DNA of 64,000 nucleotides, taken from contig NZ_LN832559.1 of NCBI RefSeq assembly GCF_900005615.1, forward strand, positions 712,837-776,836, given 5' to 3'. The notes beneath the pieces were generated by a model. The model saw nothing but the letters and a program-made list of their open reading frames with translations. It did no database searches and was not told the DNA's origin. This DNA comes from Paracoccus aminovorans (GTDB lineage Bacteria; Pseudomonadota; Alphaproteobacteria; Rhodobacterales; Rhodobacteraceae). Position numbers and translations under genes: made by a program. Shown here one piece after another: positions 836 through 58,752 of this stretch (within the stretch, counting starts at the first letter, position 1; every line of letters begins with the position of its first letter).

Positions 836-1375
836 ATGACCCAGATGAACCGCCCCGCCCGCATTGCCATCGTCACCGTCTCGGACCGCGCCTCGCGGGG
901 GGAATACGAGGACAAGGGCGGCCCGGGCGCCGAAGACTGGCTGCGCGCCACCGTCACCACGCCGATGCAGATCAGCCGGACCATCGTCCCCGACGGCCGC
1001 GACAGCGTGGCCGCGACCCTGCGCACGCTGTGCGACCAGGGCACCGACCTGATCCTGATCACCGGCGGCACCGGCCCGGCGCCGCGCGACCAGACGCCCG
1101 AGGCCATGGCCGACGTCATCGAAAAGGAACTGCCCGGCTTCGGCGAGGAGATGCGCCGCGCCAGCCTGCGCGAGGTGCCGACCGCGATCCTGTCGCGCCA
1201 GACCGCAGGCATCCGCGGCGCCACGCTGATGATCACCATCCCCGGCAAGCCCTCGGCCATCGCCACCTGCCTCGATGCGGTCTTTGCCGCCGTGCCCTAT
1301 TGCCTAGACCTGATCGGCGCCGGCTTCATCGACACCGACCCGGCGCGGATCAAGGCCTTTCGCCCCAAGGCCTAG
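836..1375 (+). CDS. mog: Molybdopterin adenylyltransferase (Mog/MoaB family)
   Basis: A 179-residue protein of the MoaB/Mog family, which adenylates molybdopterin before molybdenum insertion. The fold signature is visible: VTVSDRAS near residues 13-20, TGGTGPAPRDQTPEA at about 76-90 (the MPT-binding TGGTG loop) and IPGKPSA near residue 142. Length suits a stand-alone Mog/MoaB domain. It follows the VOC gene closely on the same strand. Its TAG stop lies inside the terminal CTAG of a ~160-bp repeat (1372-1532), so the C-terminus may have been set by that insertion. Whether it is functionally Mog or MoaB cannot be decided from sequence alone. Confidence 0.85.
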   Translation: MTQMNRPARIAIVTVSDRASRGEYEDKGGPGAEDWLRATVTTPMQISRTIVPDGRDSVAATLRTLCDQGTDLILITGGTGPAPRDQTPEAMADVIEKELPGFGEEMRRASLREVPTAILSRQTAGIRGATLMITIPGKPSAIATCLDAVFAAVPYCLDLIGAGFIDTDPARIKAFRPKA

Positions 1376-1532
1376 CAGGCTGATGAAAAGCTGTTCCTCG
1401 CGGGACGAAAAATCGTTCCGGGTCTGGCAAGGATCGGCTGGAAACCGTGTCATTTCCGGCCGATTCGCAGTGAGTTTCCGGTTTTCTGATCCAGTCCGTC
1501 CCGACGCGGCCGCTTTTTCAGCAGTCTGCTAG
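1372..1532. repeat. ~160-bp inverted-repeat-bounded element, copy A
   Basis: This 161-bp stretch begins CTAGCAGGCTGATGAAAAG and ends CTTTTTCAGCAGTCTGCTAG, so its ends are near-perfect inverted repeats of about 20 bp bounded by CTAG. It lies exactly between two convergent genes. The left CTAG provides the TAG stop of mog; the right CTAG provides the TAG stop of frcK on the other strand. The interior shares GAAAAATCGTTCCGGG and the following segment with a second copy at 25603-25766 and a diverged third at about 30636-30794. GCGGCCGCTTTTT near the right end could act as a terminator. It looks like a non-autonomous, MITE-like or REP-like element; no transposase is encoded. Confidence 0.75.
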
Positions 1533-2119
1533 ACATTCGTCAGCCGGATATCGGCGGGCAGAGAGCGGCCGGCCACGGTTTCGGCATTGGCAAGGTCGTT
1601 TTCCAGATGCGCCAGCACCTCGGCCGGAGATTGCCCCAGACCCTGCCAACGCGCGGTCAGCCGGCGGCGCAGTTCCTCGGCGGGCACCTCCAGCATGACC
1701 GACAAGTCCCAGAGCCCGGCAAGCCCGCGCCAGGGCGCGCGGTCCAGAAGCAGGTAATTGCCCTCGACCACCACCAGCCCGGTCTGGGCCGCGACCCGGC
1801 CGGCGCCGGCGATGGCAAGGTCGCGCTGGCGGTCGAAGACCGGATAGACGACCTCGCCGCCCTGTTTCAGCCGACGGATCAGGGCGACGAAACCCTCGGC
1901 GTCGAACGTCTCGGGCGCACCCTTGCGGGGGCGCAGCCCGTCCAATTCCAGCAGCCGGTTGTCGAGGTGGAACCCGTCCATCGGCACCAGCACCGCCCCC
2001 GGCACGGCGGCGACCAGCTCGGCCGCCAGCGTGGATTTGCCCGAGCCGGGGGCGCCGGCAATGGCCACAACATGCCGCCCGGGCCCCAGCCCGGCGATTC
2101 GCCGAAGAATGTCGTCCAT
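1529..2119 (-). CDS. frcK: FrcK-like P-loop kinase of the sugar-uptake operon
   Basis: A 196-residue P-loop protein of the uridine kinase/pantothenate kinase-like superfamily. Walker A is GAPGSGKST at residues 22-30; PMDGFHLDN, EGNYLLLD and LTARW follow, as in nucleoside and sugar kinases of this class. It is the last gene of an frcBCAK-type operon (minus strand), 50 bases downstream of the ATPase gene. In Sinorhizobium meliloti the same gene order accompanies high-affinity fructose uptake and FrcK is a presumed sugar kinase; the substrate here is inferred from that order. The stop codon is donated by the flanking repeat element. Confidence 0.7.
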   Translation of the reverse strand: MDDILRRIAGLGPGRHVVAIAGAPGSGKSTLAAELVAAVPGAVLVPMDGFHLDNRLLELDGLRPRKGAPETFDAEGFVALIRRLKQGGEVVYPVFDRQRDLAIAGAGRVAAQTGLVVVEGNYLLLDRAPWRGLAGLWDLSVMLEVPAEELRRRLTARWQGLGQSPAEVLAHLENDLANAETVAGRSLPADIRLTNV

Positions 2120-19177: not shown

Positions 19178-20227
19178 GACTCTGTTGCACCAAAGAGTTG
19201 ATGGCCGGATTTCCCCCTTCCCCGGACAGATCTATCCCACGGCCTCTGTGACGGGGATGCCAAGCGCGGTGTAACGGTTCAGAATAGCGATACGGACCTG
19301 AAGCTCGGCGACCTGTCGGTCAAAGTCCCGTGCCATGAGGCGCTGACCCAGCAGTTTCACACAGTGCATCTTCGTCTCGACGCGGCTTCGGGGGTGGTAT
19401 CCACTCCATCGTCGCCAGAGGGCACGACCGAGGTATTTCGATGCCCGCAGAGCCTCGTTTCGTGCGCCCGCGCCGGCGGCGACTGTCTTCCAGGGTTTGG
19501 CGTTCTTGCGGGGCGGAATGACAGCGTCGGCGCCGCGGTCAGCGATGGCATCGTGGCATTTGCGGGTGTCGTAGGCGCCGTCTGCTGTGACGCGGCCGAT
19601 CTGCTCGTGCGCCGGGATCTGTTTGAGCAGGTCGGGTAACACCGGCGCATCGCCGATGTGGCTCCCTGTGATCTCCACCGCCCGAACCTCCAGCGTTTCC
19701 TCATCAATCCCCAGATGGATCTTGCGCCAGACGCGCCGTTTCGGGCCGCCATGCTTGCGGGCGTGCCACTCGCCTTCGCCCTCGACCTTGATGCCAGTGC
19801 TGTCGATCAGCAGGTGCAGCGGCCCCTTGGACCCGCGATACGGTATGTTCACAGCCAGGGTCTTCTGGCGACGGGACAGGGTGCTGAAGTCAGGCACCGT
19901 CCAGTCGAGACCAACCAACTGCAGCAGGCTCTCGACGAAACCAGTCGTCTGCCTGAGCGCCATGCCGAAGAGCACCTTCATCGAAAGACACGTCTGAATG
20001 GCGGCATCGCTGTAGGTCTGCTGGCGGCCACGCCTGCCTGTCGGCGCGGCATCCCAGCTCATCTCGGGGTCGAACCAGATCGTCAGCGAACCCCGGCGCT
20101 TGAGCGCTTCATTGTAGGCTGGTCAGTTCCGGGTTCTGTATGTCGGGGATGCGGGTCGGCTCATGCAGACCAGCTACCGTACGGGTTTCATCAGATGAAT
20201 CCATGACAGGATTTGTGCAACAGTGCC
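19178..20227. mobile_element. IS5-family insertion sequence, copy 1 (transposase broken)
   Basis: 1,050 bp bounded by imperfect inverted repeats GACTCTGTTGCAC at the left and GGCACTGTTGCAC (reverse strand) at the right. An almost identical copy of the same length lies at 57703-58752 in opposite orientation. No target duplication is evident at either copy, so boundaries are set from where the two copies stop matching. Copy 1 sits just after the sodB terminator and has replaced the 5' part of a phage-type gene on its right. Confidence 0.85.
19232..20164 (-). pseudogene. IS5-type transposase, nonsense mutation at codon 14
   Basis: Same 933-base gene as the intact 310-residue transposase at 57766-58698, but TGG for W14 reads TGA here (20123-20125). 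What remains open is a 276-residue frame from a later ATG (MSWDAAPTGRRGRQQ), which keeps the DDE residues D121, D195 and E263 (intact numbering) but lacks the first 34 residues. A second difference near the C-terminus gives GIPVTEAVG where copy 2 has GTPVTEAVG. Internal restart is possible, so loss of activity is likely but not certain. Confidence 0.8.
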
Positions 20228-22811: not shown

Positions 22812-24134
22812 ATGACGAGGCTGCCCCTGATCGCCGCTTTGGCCGGGCTGACCGCCCTTTCGGCCTGCCAGCAGCGTGACACCATCCTGCCCGGAGAGCG
22901 GCTGGACCCGCGCGCGGTGCTGTCGCCCGACGGGCCGGTGGCCGAAGGGGCGCAGGCGCCGACCACCGCCGCCCTGTCGCTGCCGCCGGTGCGCGGCAAC
23001 AGCGACTGGCCGCAGCGCGCCGGCAGCGCCAGCCACGCCTCGGGCAACATGGCGATCGGCGCCGGCACCAGCCGCGTCTTCGCGGTGGCGATCGGCCAGG
23101 CCTCGGACAAGCGCCACCGCATCACCGCCGATCCGGTGGTGGCGGCGGGCTTGGTCTTCACGCTCGACAGCCAGTCCACCGTCACCGCCACCACGACCGG
23201 CGGCGGCCGGGTCTGGAGCGTCGATCTGCGCCCGGCCGGCGAAGGCGGACGCAGCGTCTCGGGCGGCGGGCTGGCCTTCGAGGGCAACCGGGTCTTTGCC
23301 ACCACCGGCTATGGCGAGCTGGTGGCGCTGGACGCGCGCACCGGCGGCATCGCCTGGCGCCAGCGCGTCGATGCGCCCATCGGCGGCTCGCCCACGGTGC
23401 AGAACGGCGTGGTCTATGTCGGCGGCCGCGACGCCACCAGCTGGGCGGTGCGCGCCAATGACGGCAAGGTGCTGTGGCGCGCCTTCGGCAATGACGGCAT
23501 GGCCGGCGTGATGGGCGTCTCGGCCCCGGCGGTCGCAGGCTCGACGGTGGTCTTCCCCTTCGCCACCGGCGAGATCATGGGCGTCGATACCAACACCGGC
23601 AACCAGCTGTGGACCGCCAATGTCGCCGGCCAGCGCCTGGGCCGCGCCGTGGGCTATTTCCGCGACGTCACCGGCGATCCGGTGATCGCGGGCGGCACGG
23701 TCTATGCTGGCACCAGTTCCGGTCGGGTCGCCGCCTTCGACCTCGCCACCGGCGCGATGAAATGGGAGGCGCGCGAGGGTGCCTCCAGCCCGGTGCTGGC
23801 GGTCGGTAATTCGGTCTTCCTGGTCAACGACCAGGCGCAGCTGATCCGGCTGGATGCCGCGAACGGCGGCCGGGTCTGGGCGCAGAAGCTGCCCTATTTC
23901 ACCCAGAATGTCATCCGCAAGCAGCAGAAGGTCTGGAACCATTACGGGCCGGTGCTGGCGGGGAACAAGCTTTACCTTGCCGGCTCGGACGGCTATCTGC
24001 GCGTCTTCGATCCCGCCTCGGGCGCGCTGATCGGCACTGCCCAGATCCCGGGCGGTGCCGCGGCGGCGCCGGCCGTGGCGGGCCAGACCCTTTACGTCGT
24101 CACCCATGACGGCCAGTTGATCGCGTATAGATGA
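22812..24134 (+). CDS. bamB: BamB-like outer-membrane assembly lipoprotein (PQQ-repeat propeller)
   Basis: A 440-residue lipoprotein: [20 protein letters not shown] carries a lipobox (LSAC) with the acylated Cys at 19. The body is a PQQ-like beta-propeller with repeating GxVxWxxxxxA blades, for example [47 protein letters not shown] and [16 protein letters not shown]. Likely role: the BamB subunit of the outer-membrane protein assembly machinery. It overlaps der by four bases (ATGA) and lies after the YfgM-like gene. Confidence 0.82.
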
Positions 24135-25606
24135 GCTTCACCCTCGCCATCGTCGGGCGGCCGAATGTCGGCAAGTCCACCCTGTTCAACCGCCTGGTCG
24201 GCAAGCGCCTGGCGCTGGTGGACGACCAGCCGGGCGTGACCCGCGACCTGCGCGAGGGGCAGGGGCGCCTGGGCGACCTGCGCTTCATCGTGGTCGATTC
24301 GGCCGGCCTGGAAATGGCCGAGGACGACAGCCTGCAAGGCCGCATGCGCCGCCTGACCGAACGCGCGGTCGATGAGGCCGACGTCTGCCTGTTCGTCATT
24401 GACGCCCGCGCCGGCGTGACGGCGGCCGACGAATATTTCGCGGACATCCTGCGCAAGCGGGCGAAACACGTCATTCTGGCCGCCAACAAGGCCGAGGGCC
24501 GGGCCGGCGAATCGGGCGCGATCGAGGCCTATGCCCTGGGCCTGGGCGAGCCGCTGCGGCTTTCGGCCGAGCATGGCGAGGGCATGGACGACCTCTATCG
24601 CGCGCTTCTGCCGCTGGCCGAGGCGTTCGAGGCCGCCAACGTCCAGCAGGCGCCCGAGACCGACATCGACCTGCCCGAGGACGGCGACGAGAAAGACGAC
24701 GAAAGCTGGCGTCCCTCGGCCGCGAAGCCCCTGCAGATCGCGGTGATCGGCCGGCCGAACGCCGGCAAGTCGACGCTCATCAACAAGATCCTGGGCGAGG
24801 ACCGGCTGCTGACCGGCCCCGAGGCCGGCATCACCCGCGATTCGATCAGCGTCGGCGCCGATTTCATGGGCACGCCGGTCCGCATCTTCGACACCGCCGG
24901 GATGCGGAAAAAGGCGCGCGTCACCGACAAGGTGGAAAAGCTCTCGGTCGCCGACGGGTTGCGCGCCGTGCGCTTCGCCGAGGTGGTGGTGGTGCTTCTG
25001 GACGTCGGCATCCCCTTCGAGCAGCAGGACCTGCGCATTGCCGATTTCGCCGAGACCGAGGGCCGCGCCGTGGTCATCGCCGCGAACAAGTGGGACCTAG
25101 AAGAGGACAAGCCGCAGAAGCTGAACGAGCTGCGCGAGGCGTTCGAGCGGCTCTTGCCGCAGCTGAAGGGGGCGCCCTTGGTGACGGTCTCGGCCCGCAC
25201 CGGCAAGGGGCTGGACCGGCTGCACAATGCGATCCTGAAAGCGCATGAGGTCTGGAACCGCCGCATTCCGACCGCGCGGCTGAACCAGTGGCTGGGCGCC
25301 ATGACCGAGGCGCATCCGCCGCCGGCACCGGGCGGACGCCGCATCCGGCTGCGCTACATGACCCAGGTGAAAACCCGGCCGCCGGCCTTCGTGGTCATGG
25401 CGACGCATACCGACAAGCTGCCCGACAGCTATCAGCGCTATCTGATCAATGGCTTGCGGGCGGATTTCGACATGCCCGGCACGCCGATCCGGCTGACCTT
25501 CCGCGATCAGGGGACGAAAAACCCCTATCGGGACAAGGCCAACAAGATCAACCAGTCCGGCGCGCTGTCCAAGCACAAGACCCGGCAAAAGCCCAAGGGC
25601 GCCTAG
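24131..25606 (+). CDS. der: Ribosome-associated GTPase Der (EngA)
   Basis: A 491-residue tandem GTPase needed for 50S ribosome assembly. First G domain: [18 protein letters not shown] at the N-terminus; second: [18 protein letters not shown] near residue 206. Both have DTAG/DSAG and NK(W)D/NKAE motifs. The C-terminal KH-like domain includes [17 protein letters not shown] and [14 protein letters not shown]. The TAG stop is the terminal CTAG of the ~160-bp element that follows, so the last residues may have changed with its insertion. Confidence 0.92.
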
Positions 25607-25766
25607 CAGGCTGCTGAAAAAGAGCTCCGAGAGGGCGTCGGGACGGAAAATCGTTCCGGGCCCGACGAGCATCGGCCAAAGGACAGCGTATTTGCGGACA
25701 ATTCGAGGTGAACCTCCGCTTTCTGTCCATGTGTCGCGTGACGGGACTTTTTCAGCAGCCTGCTAG
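25603..25766. repeat. ~160-bp inverted-repeat-bounded element, copy B
   Basis: 164 bp with perfect 20-bp terminal inverted repeats CTAGCAGGCTGCTGAAAAAG and CTTTTTCAGCAGCCTGCTAG. It shares GGAAAATCGTTCCGGG and other stretches with copy A (1372-1532). It again separates convergent genes: the left CTAG holds the der stop, the right CTAG the stop of the minus-strand membrane protein gene. GACGGGACTTTTT near the right end could terminate transcripts. Confidence 0.8.
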
Positions 25767-26605
25767 GTCGTCACCCGCACCAGCGCCACGGCGATGATGG
25801 CGATGGCGACCACCGTGGCGGTGGCGATGGTGGCGTCGGTGGTGACGGTGCCGGCGGCGATGCCGATCAGCCCCCAGATCAAGGCCACGCTGAAGCCGAT
25901 GCGCTTGGGCATGCGCAGTTGCACCCCCACCGCCGCCACCGCGCCGATCAGCAGCGCGATCAGCGCGGCGGATGTTTGCGGCACGCCCAGGCGCTGTTCC
26001 AGCAGGCCGGTGAACAGGGCGAAGCTGACCAGCAGCGCCCAGCCGGCAACGAAGCCCAGCGTCGAGCTGCGCTGCACCACCGGACCCACCCGAACGCCGC
26101 GCAGCGCCGCGGCCAGCGTGCCCGCCAGCGTGACGGTGGACAGCAGGAAGCTGATCAGCGGGTAAGGCGACAACAGCCAGGGCCACAGCGCCCCGACCAG
26201 CAGGCTGACGATCAGCGGCCCATGCTCGGCCAGATTGCCGTCGCGCTCGTGCAGGCGCAGCAGGTCGCCCGGTACTGGCGGCCCGGCGCCTTGCGGCGGC
26301 AGCGGCCGGCCCTCGATCTCGGCCGCCTGCCGGGCCCGCGCCAGCCGCCGGCCCTCCAGCCTCAGCCGCAGGGCGTGATAGCCCAGCGCCGCCCAGGTTG
26401 CCGCCAGCAGCCCCGTCATGGCCGGGCTGTCCGGGCGCAGGAACAGCTGCGCCAGATCGACCGGCGGCACCTGCTCTGACAGCACGAGCGAATCGGCGGG
26501 CGGCGATGGCGGCACGGGCGCCGCCGGCCAAAAGGCGTAAAGCATCGTGCTGGCGACAAAGACCAGCGCCGCCAAGGTCAGCAGGTTGGTGCCGATGCGG
26601 GACAT
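25763..26605 (-). CDS. Multi-pass membrane protein of unknown function
   Basis: A 280-residue protein I do not recognise. The N-terminal membrane anchor is LLTLAALVFVASTMLYAFWP; after a linker and a helical stretch (GYHALRLRLEGRRLARARQA) come about five more hydrophobic segments, the last one Ala/Thr/Ile-rich (TVTTDATIATATVVAIAIIA). RBS-like GCGCAAGGCG precedes the start weakly. It lies 51 bases downstream of serS on the same strand. The final codon TAG belongs to the repeat element, so the C-terminus may be altered by its insertion. Confidence 0.65.
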   Translation of the reverse strand: MSRIGTNLLTLAALVFVASTMLYAFWPAAPVPPSPPADSLVLSEQVPPVDLAQLFLRPDSPAMTGLLAATWAALGYHALRLRLEGRRLARARQAAEIEGRPLPPQGAGPPVPGDLLRLHERDGNLAEHGPLIVSLLVGALWPWLLSPYPLISFLLSTVTLAGTLAAALRGVRVGPVVQRSSTLGFVAGWALLVSFALFTGLLEQRLGVPQTSAALIALLIGAVAAVGVQLRMPKRIGFSVALIWGLIGIAAGTVTTDATIATATVVAIAIIAVALVRVTT

Positions 26606-30569: not shown

Positions 30570-30635
30570 GCATGTCCGGGGCAGGGAAACCCGGCGCCGG
30601 CCTGTGCCGCCGGCGCGGAAACGGCCGGGCGGGGC

Positions 30636-30794
30636 GGGCTGCAAAAGCCCGCGTGATACGATGGGTATGGCCGGAAACCGGGAAATCCGTCTTGAATTGG
30701 CAGGAAACGCCCGGTTTTCAGGCCAATCCTTACCAGATACAGAACGATTTTCGCGATGGGGCCTGCTCAAAATCCGTTTTGAGCAACCTGTTAG
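30636..30794. repeat. ~160-bp element, diverged copy C (minus orientation)
   Basis: Read on the minus strand it starts CTAACAGGTTGCTCAAAACG and contains GCGAAAATCGTTCTG, TATCTGGTAAGGATTGG and CCGGTTTCCGGCC, which align with copies A and B through most of their length at roughly 60-70 percent by eye. Its first bases again contain the stop codon (TAA) of the adjoining gene, the minus-strand esterase. The other end is poorly conserved and lies after the rpmB terminator. The near end forms a hairpin GCTCAAAA/TTTTGAGC that could terminate that transcript. Confidence 0.6.
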
Positions 30795-31447
30795 CGCCGG
30801 GCCTCGGTCCGGGCGATCAGTTCCTCGACCTTGGGCCCCAGCGCCTCGACGATCAGGCCGACGCCCTTGGCCGAGGCATGCAGCTGATCCTCTTGCAGCA
30901 GCGACAGGTATTGCTCGTCCGGGCCGTCGTAGAGCGGCTGGTAGAGGTTCTCAAGCACCAGCGCATCGTGGCGGGCACCCAGCCGCGGCCAGATCCCGGC
31001 CCATTCCTCGCGCAACGGCGCATCCTTCTGGGGCAGGGCGATGCCGACCAGCAGCAGCGGCCGGCCGTTCTGGCCCGCCTGGGACAGGATGGAATCCAGG
31101 TTGTCCTCGACCATCGCTGGCCCGAAGCCCATGAGCAGGTCGTTCCCGCCCAGTTCGACGATCACCGCATCGGGCCTGTGCCGCGCCAGGGAATAGCCGA
31201 TCCGCACCCGTCCGCCGGCGGTGGTATCGCCGGAAAGCCCGCCGTTGAGCACGATCACGTCATGGCCGCGCGCCCTCAGCCAGGCTTGCAGCTGCGGCAC
31301 CAGCCCCTGGCCACGCTTTAGCCCGTAACCCTCGGTCAGGCTGTCGCCGAAGGCGAGGATGCGCAGCGGCGCGGCGGCCAGGGGCCCCGCCGCCAGCGCC
31401 AGCATCAGGGACAGCATCAGGGACAGCAGAAGAGCTTTCAATCTCAT
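30791..31447 (-). CDS. tesA: GDSL-type arylesterase / lysophospholipase (TesA-like)
   Basis: A 218-residue periplasmic SGNH hydrolase. Signal peptide MRLKALLLSLMLSLMLALAA (cleaved near PLAAAP), then block I FGDSLTEG with nucleophile Ser36, block III GGNDLLMG and block V DQLHASAKG with the catalytic Asp/His. It would hydrolyse acyl esters or thioesters. Overlap of four bases with copA (ATGA) puts it as the second gene of that unit. The TAA stop is part of the diverged repeat element. Confidence 0.85.
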   Translation of the reverse strand: MRLKALLLSLMLSLMLALAAGPLAAAPLRILAFGDSLTEGYGLKRGQGLVPQLQAWLRARGHDVIVLNGGLSGDTTAGGRVRIGYSLARHRPDAVIVELGGNDLLMGFGPAMVEDNLDSILSQAGQNGRPLLLVGIALPQKDAPLREEWAGIWPRLGARHDALVLENLYQPLYDGPDEQYLSLLQEDQLHASAKGVGLIVEALGPKVEELIARTEARR

Positions 31448-57702: not shown

Positions 57703-58752
57703 GGCTCTGTTGCACAAATCCTGTCATGGATTCATCTGATGAAACCCGTACGGTAGCTGGTCTGCATGAGCCGACCCGCATCCCCGACATACAGAACCCG
57801 GAACTGGCCAGCCTACAATGAAGCGCTCAAGCGCCGGGGTTCGCTGACGATCTGGTTCGACCCCGAGATGAGCTGGGATGCCGCGCCGACAGGCAGGCGT
57901 GGCCGCCAGCAGACCTACAGCGATGCCGCCATTCAGACGTGTCTTTCGATGAAGGTGCTCTTCGGCATGGCGCTCAGGCAGACGACTGGTTTCGTCGAGA
58001 GCCTGCTGCAGTTGGTTGGTCTCGACTGGACGGTGCCTGACTTCAGCACCCTGTCCCGTCGCCAGAAGACCCTGGCTGTGAACATACCGTATCGCGGGTC
58101 CAAGGGGCCGCTGCACCTGCTGATCGACAGCACTGGCATCAAGGTCGAGGGCGAAGGCGAGTGGCACGCCCGCAAGCATGGCGGCCCGAAACGGCGCGTC
58201 TGGCGCAAGATCCATCTGGGGATTGATGAGGAAACGCTGGAGGTTCGGGCGGTGGAGATCACAGGGAGCCACATCGGCGATGCGCCGGTGTTACCCGACC
58301 TGCTCAAACAGATCCCGGCGCACGAGCAGATCGGCCGCGTCACAGCAGACGGCGCCTACGACACCCGCAAATGCCACGATGCCATCGCTGACCGCGGCGC
58401 CGACGCTGTCATTCCGCCCCGCAAGAACGCCAAACCCTGGAAGACAGTCGCCGCCGGCGCGGGCGCACGAAACGAGGCTCTGCGGGCATCGAAATACCTC
58501 GGTCGTGCCCTCTGGCGACGATGGAGTGGATACCACCCCCGAAGCCGCGTCGAGACGAAGATGCACTGTGTGAAACTGCTGGGTCAGCGCCTCATGGCAC
58601 GGGACTTTGACCGACAGGTCGCCGAGCTTCAGGTCCGTATCGCTATTCTGAACCGTTACACCGCGCTTGGCACCCCCGTCACAGAGGCCGTGGGATAGAT
58701 CTGTCCGGGGAAAGGGGAAATCCGGCCATCAACTCTTTGGTGCAACAGAGTC
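57703..58752. mobile_element. IS5-family insertion sequence, copy 2 (intact)
   Basis: 1,050 bp bounded by GGCTCTGTTGCACAAATC and GTGCAACAGAGTC. It is nearly identical to copy 1 at 19178-20227 but inverted. It carries an intact transposase. No flanking duplication is evident. It lies between the gap after mlaC and the 3' end of a DNA methyltransferase gene. Confidence 0.88.
57766..58698 (+). CDS. IS5-family transposase (intact, 310 aa)
   Basis: A DDE transposase with an N-terminal DUF772-like helical domain (TYSDAAIQTCLSMKVLFGMA) and a DDE_Tnp_1-type core. Likely catalytic residues are D121 (LLIDSTGIKV), D195 (VTADGAYDTRKCH) and E263 (RSRVETKMHCVKLLG). It begins MSRPASPTYRTRNWPAYNEA with W14 intact, which the copy at 19.2-20.2 kb has lost to a stop. 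It could therefore mobilise both copies in trans. Confidence 0.88.
   Translation: MSRPASPTYRTRNWPAYNEALKRRGSLTIWFDPEMSWDAAPTGRRGRQQTYSDAAIQTCLSMKVLFGMALRQTTGFVESLLQLVGLDWTVPDFSTLSRRQKTLAVNIPYRGSKGPLHLLIDSTGIKVEGEGEWHARKHGGPKRRVWRKIHLGIDEETLEVRAVEITGSHIGDAPVLPDLLKQIPAHEQIGRVTADGAYDTRKCHDAIADRGADAVIPPRKNAKPWKTVAAGAGARNEALRASKYLGRALWRRWSGYHPRSRVETKMHCVKLLGQRLMARDFDRQVAELQVRIAILNRYTALGTPVTEAVG

Follow-up and report, generated by a model that had tools for sequence, protein, structure and literature searches.

A Paracoccus family of MITE-type transposons duplicates YTAR targets, often CTAG, and lies frequently between convergent genes

The window, as we call the whole 64,000-nucleotide stretch of Paracoccus aminovorans DNA analyzed here, contains two repeats that each sit exactly between two convergent genes. 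Copy A (1372-1532, 161 bp including both tetramers) is bounded by CTAG at 1372..1375 and 1529..1532, which we assign below as target-site duplications. The 153 bp between them (1376..1528, plus strand) form the MITE proper, without a transposase and with terminal inverted repeats of about 18 bp at 1376..1393 (plus) and 1511..1528 (minus). To the left of copy A lies mog, for molybdopterin adenylyltransferase (836..1375, plus strand; NF006932, 238.7 bits, cut-off 158), and to the right a nucleoside/nucleotide kinase-like gene (1529..2119, minus strand; NF006746, 234.9 bits, below the cut-off of 250), which the initial annotation called frcK. Copy B (25603-25766, 164 bp including both tetramers) has its CTAG target-site duplications at 25603..25606 and 25763..25766 and a MITE proper of 156 bp, likewise without a transposase (25607..25762, plus strand). 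Its left neighbor is der, for a ribosome biogenesis GTPase (24131..25606, plus strand; TIGR03594, 532 bits), and its right neighbor is a minus-strand gene (25763..26605) previously noted as a membrane protein, for which no Pfam or NCBIfam match was found at E 0.001.

Copies A and B have terminal inverted repeats of about 18 bp, interior blocks in common and CTAG at all four outer ends. Open reading frames and gene calls placed the TAG stop of each flanking gene within the adjoining CTAG, that of mog at the left of A, of frcK (minus strand) at the right of A, of der at the left of B, and of the minus-strand neighbor at the right of B. The coordinates, shared blocks, convergent placement and four stops of the initial annotation were thus confirmed; of its "about 20-bp inverted repeats bounded by CTAG", the four CTAG ends stood and the repeats measured about 18 bp. 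Open reading frames contained in the two copies are at most 49 aa long. An Rfam search of window positions 1001-2000, covering copy A only, gave no match at E up to 1, and a known RNA family was dropped as an identity for copy A.

The two copies listed at first are real, but the list was incomplete. A third copy, C, old and diverged, lies on the minus strand at 30631..30794, corresponding to C1:743467-743630 of the genome, with GGGG as its left tetramer and TTAG as its right (30791..30794), the latter containing the TAA stop of a minus-strand GDSL lipase-like gene (30791-31441). Copy C meets a stop at this right end only; its drifted left end lies 138 bp beyond rpmB. CTAG itself is scarce in the window, with 19 occurrences observed against about 185 expected from base composition, and 4 of the 19 are the ends of A and B.

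The ends of the family read CAGGCTGCTGAAAAA...TTTTTCAGCAGCCTG, and the element is about 159 bp long. The 18-base end pattern, with up to three mismatches, gave 67 matches in the genome compared with 8 for the reversed pattern, which together with the CTAG count in the window puts the observation at A and B beyond chance. A covariance model built from 15 copies was run against the 4.04-Mb host genome at E up to 0.01 and gave 79 matches, 21 of them opposite-strand matches of the same copies, leaving at least 58 classified host copies; this count rests on the best 150 of 2473 first-look candidates, so that more weak copies are possible. Scores were 60 bits or above in 36/58, and the weakest copies, at 25-40 bits, may include chance matches. 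Without tetramers the 58 host copies measure 118-195 bp. The young copies of P. versutus DSM 582 measured 157-159 bp (n = 21, omitting two copies cut by contig ends and unpaired ends), with 15 of the 21 at 159 bp.

The element was present in 13 of 121 genomes of the genus, the host included. An exact-pattern scan of one genome per species (84,980 species) returned 18 matching stretches, all in records titled Paracoccus, and no record titled P. yeei was among those matching this strict pattern. Spread by phages or viruses was dropped, since phages gave no match with the consensus and viral contigs none with the strict exact pattern. A 3.2-kb region of the host is 97.7% identical to plasmid p_IV of P. 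aminovorans BM109. The repeats are short, end in terminal inverted repeats, contain no transposase gene, are dispersed in many copies and are polymorphic between strains. Copies A, B and C belong to a family of MITE-type non-autonomous transposons in Paracoccus, which represents an already known type of element.

The role of CTAG was read from the young copies of P. versutus DSM 582. Identical tetramers flanked 15 of 21 copies (7 CTAG, 4 TTAG, 3 CTAA, and 1 TTAA), five had tetramers one base apart, and one diverged copy had no match. All 15 identical pairs are YTAR and 7/15 are CTAG, as under the target rule of the IS5 group. Because TTAG...TTAG is a direct repeat, the inverted repeat does not include the tetramer, which is a target-site duplication. 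The non-palindromic TTAG and CTAA pairs rule out a CTAG belonging to the terminal inverted repeat. CTAG is a 4-bp target that is duplicated on insertion. Direct tetramer repeats also flank many copies in other Paracoccus records, where one search covered 3 of 8 records. IS630 duplicates a TA-only target. A TA-only duplication of this style was not favored for the MITE, since each flank preserves the complete TTAA or TTAG. The host copies are mostly old and keep identical outer tetramers in 8/58 only.

Two adjoining pairs of host copies (G000:C2:121485-121774 and G000:C1:2968949-2969256) overlap by exactly one 4-bp tetramer, TTAC and TCGG, no longer YTAR. They look as they would if the second copy had inserted in the duplicated target of the first. 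Separately, a young TTAA-flanked copy lies inside an IS66-family transposase gene on contig 58 of P. versutus DSM 582 (L188).

We measured how often copies coincide with gene ends. At least one end falls on a stop codon in 32/58 host copies, both ends in 7/58, and neither in 26/58. In P. versutus DSM 582 a stop-coincident end was found in 11/21 copies. The stops at host copies are TAG (28), TGA (7), and TAA (4). As background we used 151,770 bases, which include orthologous stretches of several plasmids, so that its counts are not fully independent. Among 50 background CTAG outside elements, 14 lay at a stop, 23 were intergenic and 13 were in genes, which makes stop codons of 14/37 outside gene interiors. 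Against these non-interior CTAG the excess of stop coincidence at copies was not significant (p = 0.14); against all four YTAR tetramers (18 stop, 59 intergenic) it was (p = 0.0003).

Gene orientation showed a stronger bias. The 58 host copies comprise 33 in convergent, 19 in tandem, 2 in divergent and 4 in unknown context, compared with 23 convergent, 104 tandem and 25 divergent adjacent pairs in the background. The enrichment between convergent genes proposed from A and B was therefore upheld across the genome (33/54 vs 23/152, p = 4e-10). It also exceeds what CTAG availability provides, since 9/33 non-interior CTAG of known context are convergent (p = 0.004), and target preference alone thus does not explain everything. 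We read the pattern as target preference combined with the loss of harmful insertions.

The leading alternative is that the transposase or a host factor actively steers insertions toward the 3' ends of genes or toward converging transcription, over and above a preference for CTAG. The convergent excess over both gene pairs and CTAG speaks for such steering, as do the 7/58 copies with both ends on stops, set against 0/50 background CTAG serving two stops. However, the same enrichment would arise if insertions into promoters, operons or genes were lost, and shared sites that have already been hit drop out of the background count. Within convergent regions, moreover, the use of stops matches CTAG availability, with stop and non-stop sites at 20/13 for copies and 5/4 for CTAG (p = 1.0; all YTAR 6/12, p = 0.08), and one young copy has inserted within an IS66 transposase gene. 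We consider active steering unlikely and retain target preference with selection.

Element-free relatives were compared at the sites of copies A and B. At site A the closest relative (G047, 91% identical) reads ...aaggcCTAGgcattc..., in which one CTAG provides the stop of two open frames on opposite strands, 340 and 216 codons long. This shared tetramer was found in 1 of 11 relatives compared; the other 10, at 72-79% identity, share none. Among relatives of mog (n = 29), a CTAG ending was found in 0/29, and frcK adjoins in one of them only (G030), where mog ends in TTAA. At site B one tetramer ends both open reading frames in 13/19 relatives (11 CTAG and two TTAG or CTAA) and separate stops occur in 6/19; with a shared CTAG (11/19) the frames are 489-529 and 268-374 codons long.

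Other host sites were compared in the same way. At C1:2211117 one TTAG or CTAG ends both open reading frames in 11/11 relatives, and at C1:616056 one CTAG ends both frames in G047, the one relative compared. Against this pattern, three relatives at C4:563532 keep the last residue of the left gene but have TGA in place of its TAG. A copy on pBEN of P. versutus DSM 17099 (1693431) has an empty counterpart with a single CTAG in P. versutus UW1, whose 224 bases are 100% identical to the joined flanks of the filled site; the site is also empty in P. pantotrophus, at 90% identity. For a second pBEN site, P. pantotrophus has one TTAG (85%).

A copy on contig C104 of P. versutus DSM 582 has an empty counterpart within the same genome, with one TTAG and 97% identity over 196 bases, 22 of them to the right of the tetramer. 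Three other sites of that strain showed no clear shared tetramer in relatives 65-83% identical; this comparison covered 2790/7224 bases, equal to 8 of the 21 sites plus part of one more. Another empty-site comparison covered 1219/2440 bases, equal to 4 of 10 sites whole and a fifth one base short.

A further CTAG site on pBEN (1084479) is occupied by a young copy in both P. versutus DSM 17099 and P. ferrooxidans (the site and its counterparts being L175, L219 and L227). Its counterpart in P. pantotrophus holds a diverged element of similar design, a weak match to the model, and that in P. versutus UW1 holds no element and 5 extra bases. Either the same target has been used repeatedly, or the extra bases are the footprint of an excision.

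Taken together, the empty sites mean that the stops predate the insertions. The initial annotation had proposed that CTAG belongs to the ends of the element, which would supply the stop codons of both flanking genes and might act as a mobile terminator in both directions. At A and B all four stops do lie in terminal CTAG, and mog ends on another stop in most distant relatives. However, where the element is missing the shared tetramer is already in place and the genes have the same ends, and the duplications include non-palindromic tetramers. The outcome named beforehand as contradicting stop supply, genes without the element ending on the same shared tetramer, was found at A (1/11), B (13/19) and C1:2211117 (11/11), and again in the empty site of P. 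versutus UW1 with its identical flanks and single CTAG. Stop supply by the element is refuted: the element does not supply stops, and the stops existed first. Mobility itself is supported, by the empty sites and by a site filled in one P. versutus strain and empty in another.

RNA folding of the elements is strong (z -5.8, -6.2, and -3.1), as the terminator reading would have it, but such folding follows from the inverted repeats. A simple consensus scan for a GC stem and U tract found no terminator-like match inside A, B or C. A conserved interior fold was dropped as well, no such fold being found in 15 copies, where the covariation term was unfavorable.

Divergence was compared between the host and P. 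aminovorans BM109, in which 16/17 large-plasmid copies were matched. Differences amounted to 30/574 in the inverted repeats, 107/1858 in the interior, and 1/128 in the tetramers, against 154/3567 in intergenic flanks and 98/2990 at third codon positions; copy C4:286728, which differs far more than its own flanks, contributes 7 of the differences in the ends and 14 of those in the interior. Ends and interior thus diverge about like intergenic flanks and faster than third codon positions, and these figures indicate that the element body is about neutral while the tetramers, many being stops, are kept. With no match in the consensus scan and near-neutral divergence, the terminator was dropped; this role is unsupported, and we regard the combined reading of stop supplier and terminator as highly improbable. 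An old domesticated repeat, REP/BIME-like and retained because it serves the host, for instance in DNA structure or in the stability of mRNA, would fit the strong palindromy and the 16/17 large-plasmid copies common to two P. aminovorans strains, but it is scarcely credible given near-neutral divergence, presence in only 13/121 genus genomes, presence or absence between two P. versutus strains and no conserved interior fold in 15 copies.

For the mobile element favored here, candidate helpers were sought by searching NCBIfam IS1182 (NF033551) in 13 element-bearing genomes, and 30 loci with a match were examined for ends. Both ends within three mismatches of CAGGCTGCTGAAAAA, about 1.35-1.5 kb apart, were found at L281, at L283/L299 (one element) and at L287; most of the 30 loci had none. 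The insertion sequence L281 (G023) spans 1351 bp with both ends exact and flanks TTCA/TTAA. Its 393-aa transposase, with DUF772 and DDE domains, scored 268.9 bits with NF033581 (IS5_4; cut-off 140), and its IS1182 match was below cut-off.

Plasmid relatives had both ends in five of seven examined, with identical flanking tetramers in 2/5. They include ISRsp13 of Pseudorhizobium (L308, TTAA/TTAA), ISRssp10 of Roseovarius (L309, CTAA/TTAA) and an insertion sequence of P. liaowanqingii (L311, CTAG/CTAG); the flanking tetramers of the remaining two do not match. The plasmid on which PMC11578231 places ISPye18 carries L307, whose ends show 1 and 3 mismatches and whose flanking tetramers do not match; we infer that L307 is ISPye18. 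The P. liaowanqingii plasmid NZ_CP040765 carries a MITE copy too, so partner and MITE occur together.

Autonomous partners with matching ends are L281, L283, L308, L309 and L311. The host loci examined included no intact insertion sequence with these ends, L278, L291 and L303 being without them; a relic in the host retains a single end of this type and has frame breaks. No alignment was obtained between the MITE interior and the one insertion sequence compared (L281). Judging by the ends, the helper is likely an IS5/IS1182-type insertion sequence of about 1.35 kb. The initial proposal that no transposase is encoded and that a helper in trans is needed agrees both with the insertion sequences that have matching ends and with the short reading frames of A and B. 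Weak IS1182-profile matches were observed in the window at 19493-19735 and 58195-58437, within open frames of 296 aa and 313 aa, and many other positions in the host give equally scoring matches.

By description, the closest known element is MITEPye1 of P. yeei, which the available text of PMC11578231 gives as 159 bp, with 18-bp ends like those of the IS1182-family ISPye18, 4-bp direct repeats, intergenic location, no transposase, a long stem-loop fold and proposed mobilization in trans. These traits recur in our family, a likeness by description only. Each chromosome of P. yeei carries 1-3 copies, with 96-100% identity (PMC11578231), whereas the host has 58 scored copies, mostly old. CTAG is not mentioned in the main text of that paper. 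ISRsp13, ISRssp10 and their relatives have ends within 0-3 mismatches of CAGGCTGCTGAAAAA, but they are about 1.35 kb long and encode a transposase, which the MITE does not. The class name differs between sources, the NCBI models giving IS5 (NF033581) and PMC11578231, in its available text, filing ISPye18 under IS1182. A survey of Paracoccus transposable elements names a MITE once in its available text, in the introduction (PMC3281130). We found no paper joining IS1182, CTAG and MITE, none with the end sequence, and none on CTAG with convergent genes.

The ends of E. coli IS5 differ from those of the MITE. The YTAR target rule, with CTAG favored, is the same in both. The target duplication of E. 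coli IS5 is described as 4-bp Py-T-A-Pu, with CTAG commonest at 15 of 24 listed, and the insertions described lie in regulatory regions and hot spots, not at stop codons (PMC5493358, available text).

We hold with high confidence that this is a MITE family, presumably mobilized in trans, which targets YTAR, duplicates 4 bp and is shaped by selection, and which makes no stops. An IS5/IS1182-type transposase acting in trans would insert the element at YTAR, often CTAG, and each insertion would duplicate the 4-bp target, target and duplication being directly visible in the young copies. In the GC-rich host genome CTAG is a rare tetramer and, outside gene interiors, often a stop codon. Where convergent genes overlap by a shared CTAG, which reads TAG on both strands, insertion gives each gene its own copy and leaves both proteins unaltered. 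Few insertions are observed within genes, where they presumably were purged, and target preference with selection then produces the observed pattern. The element itself probably does nothing for the host.

The comparison with element-free relatives shows how a transposon can mimic a supplier of stop codons while only targeting stops. It also suggests that a published 159-bp MITE type is surrounded by a wider Paracoccus family, represented in one genome by dozens of copies, and connects this family with insertion sequences whose ends match. More tentatively, the preference for CTAG might be a safe-harbour strategy in GC-rich genomes, in which a shared stop is split into two independent ones with a spacer of about 160 bp. 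Since CTAG is depleted in genes and kept at TAG stops, a CTAG-targeting transposon would land on stops, and its best landing would be the 4-bp overlap of two convergent genes. If this is true, the stops would be freed to drift, as the TAG (28), TGA (7), and TAA (4) at host copies may illustrate, and transcript collision would possibly be changed. The family offers a natural case in which overlapping convergent genes are separated with their proteins unchanged, so that the effect of transcript collision can be tested by comparing strains.
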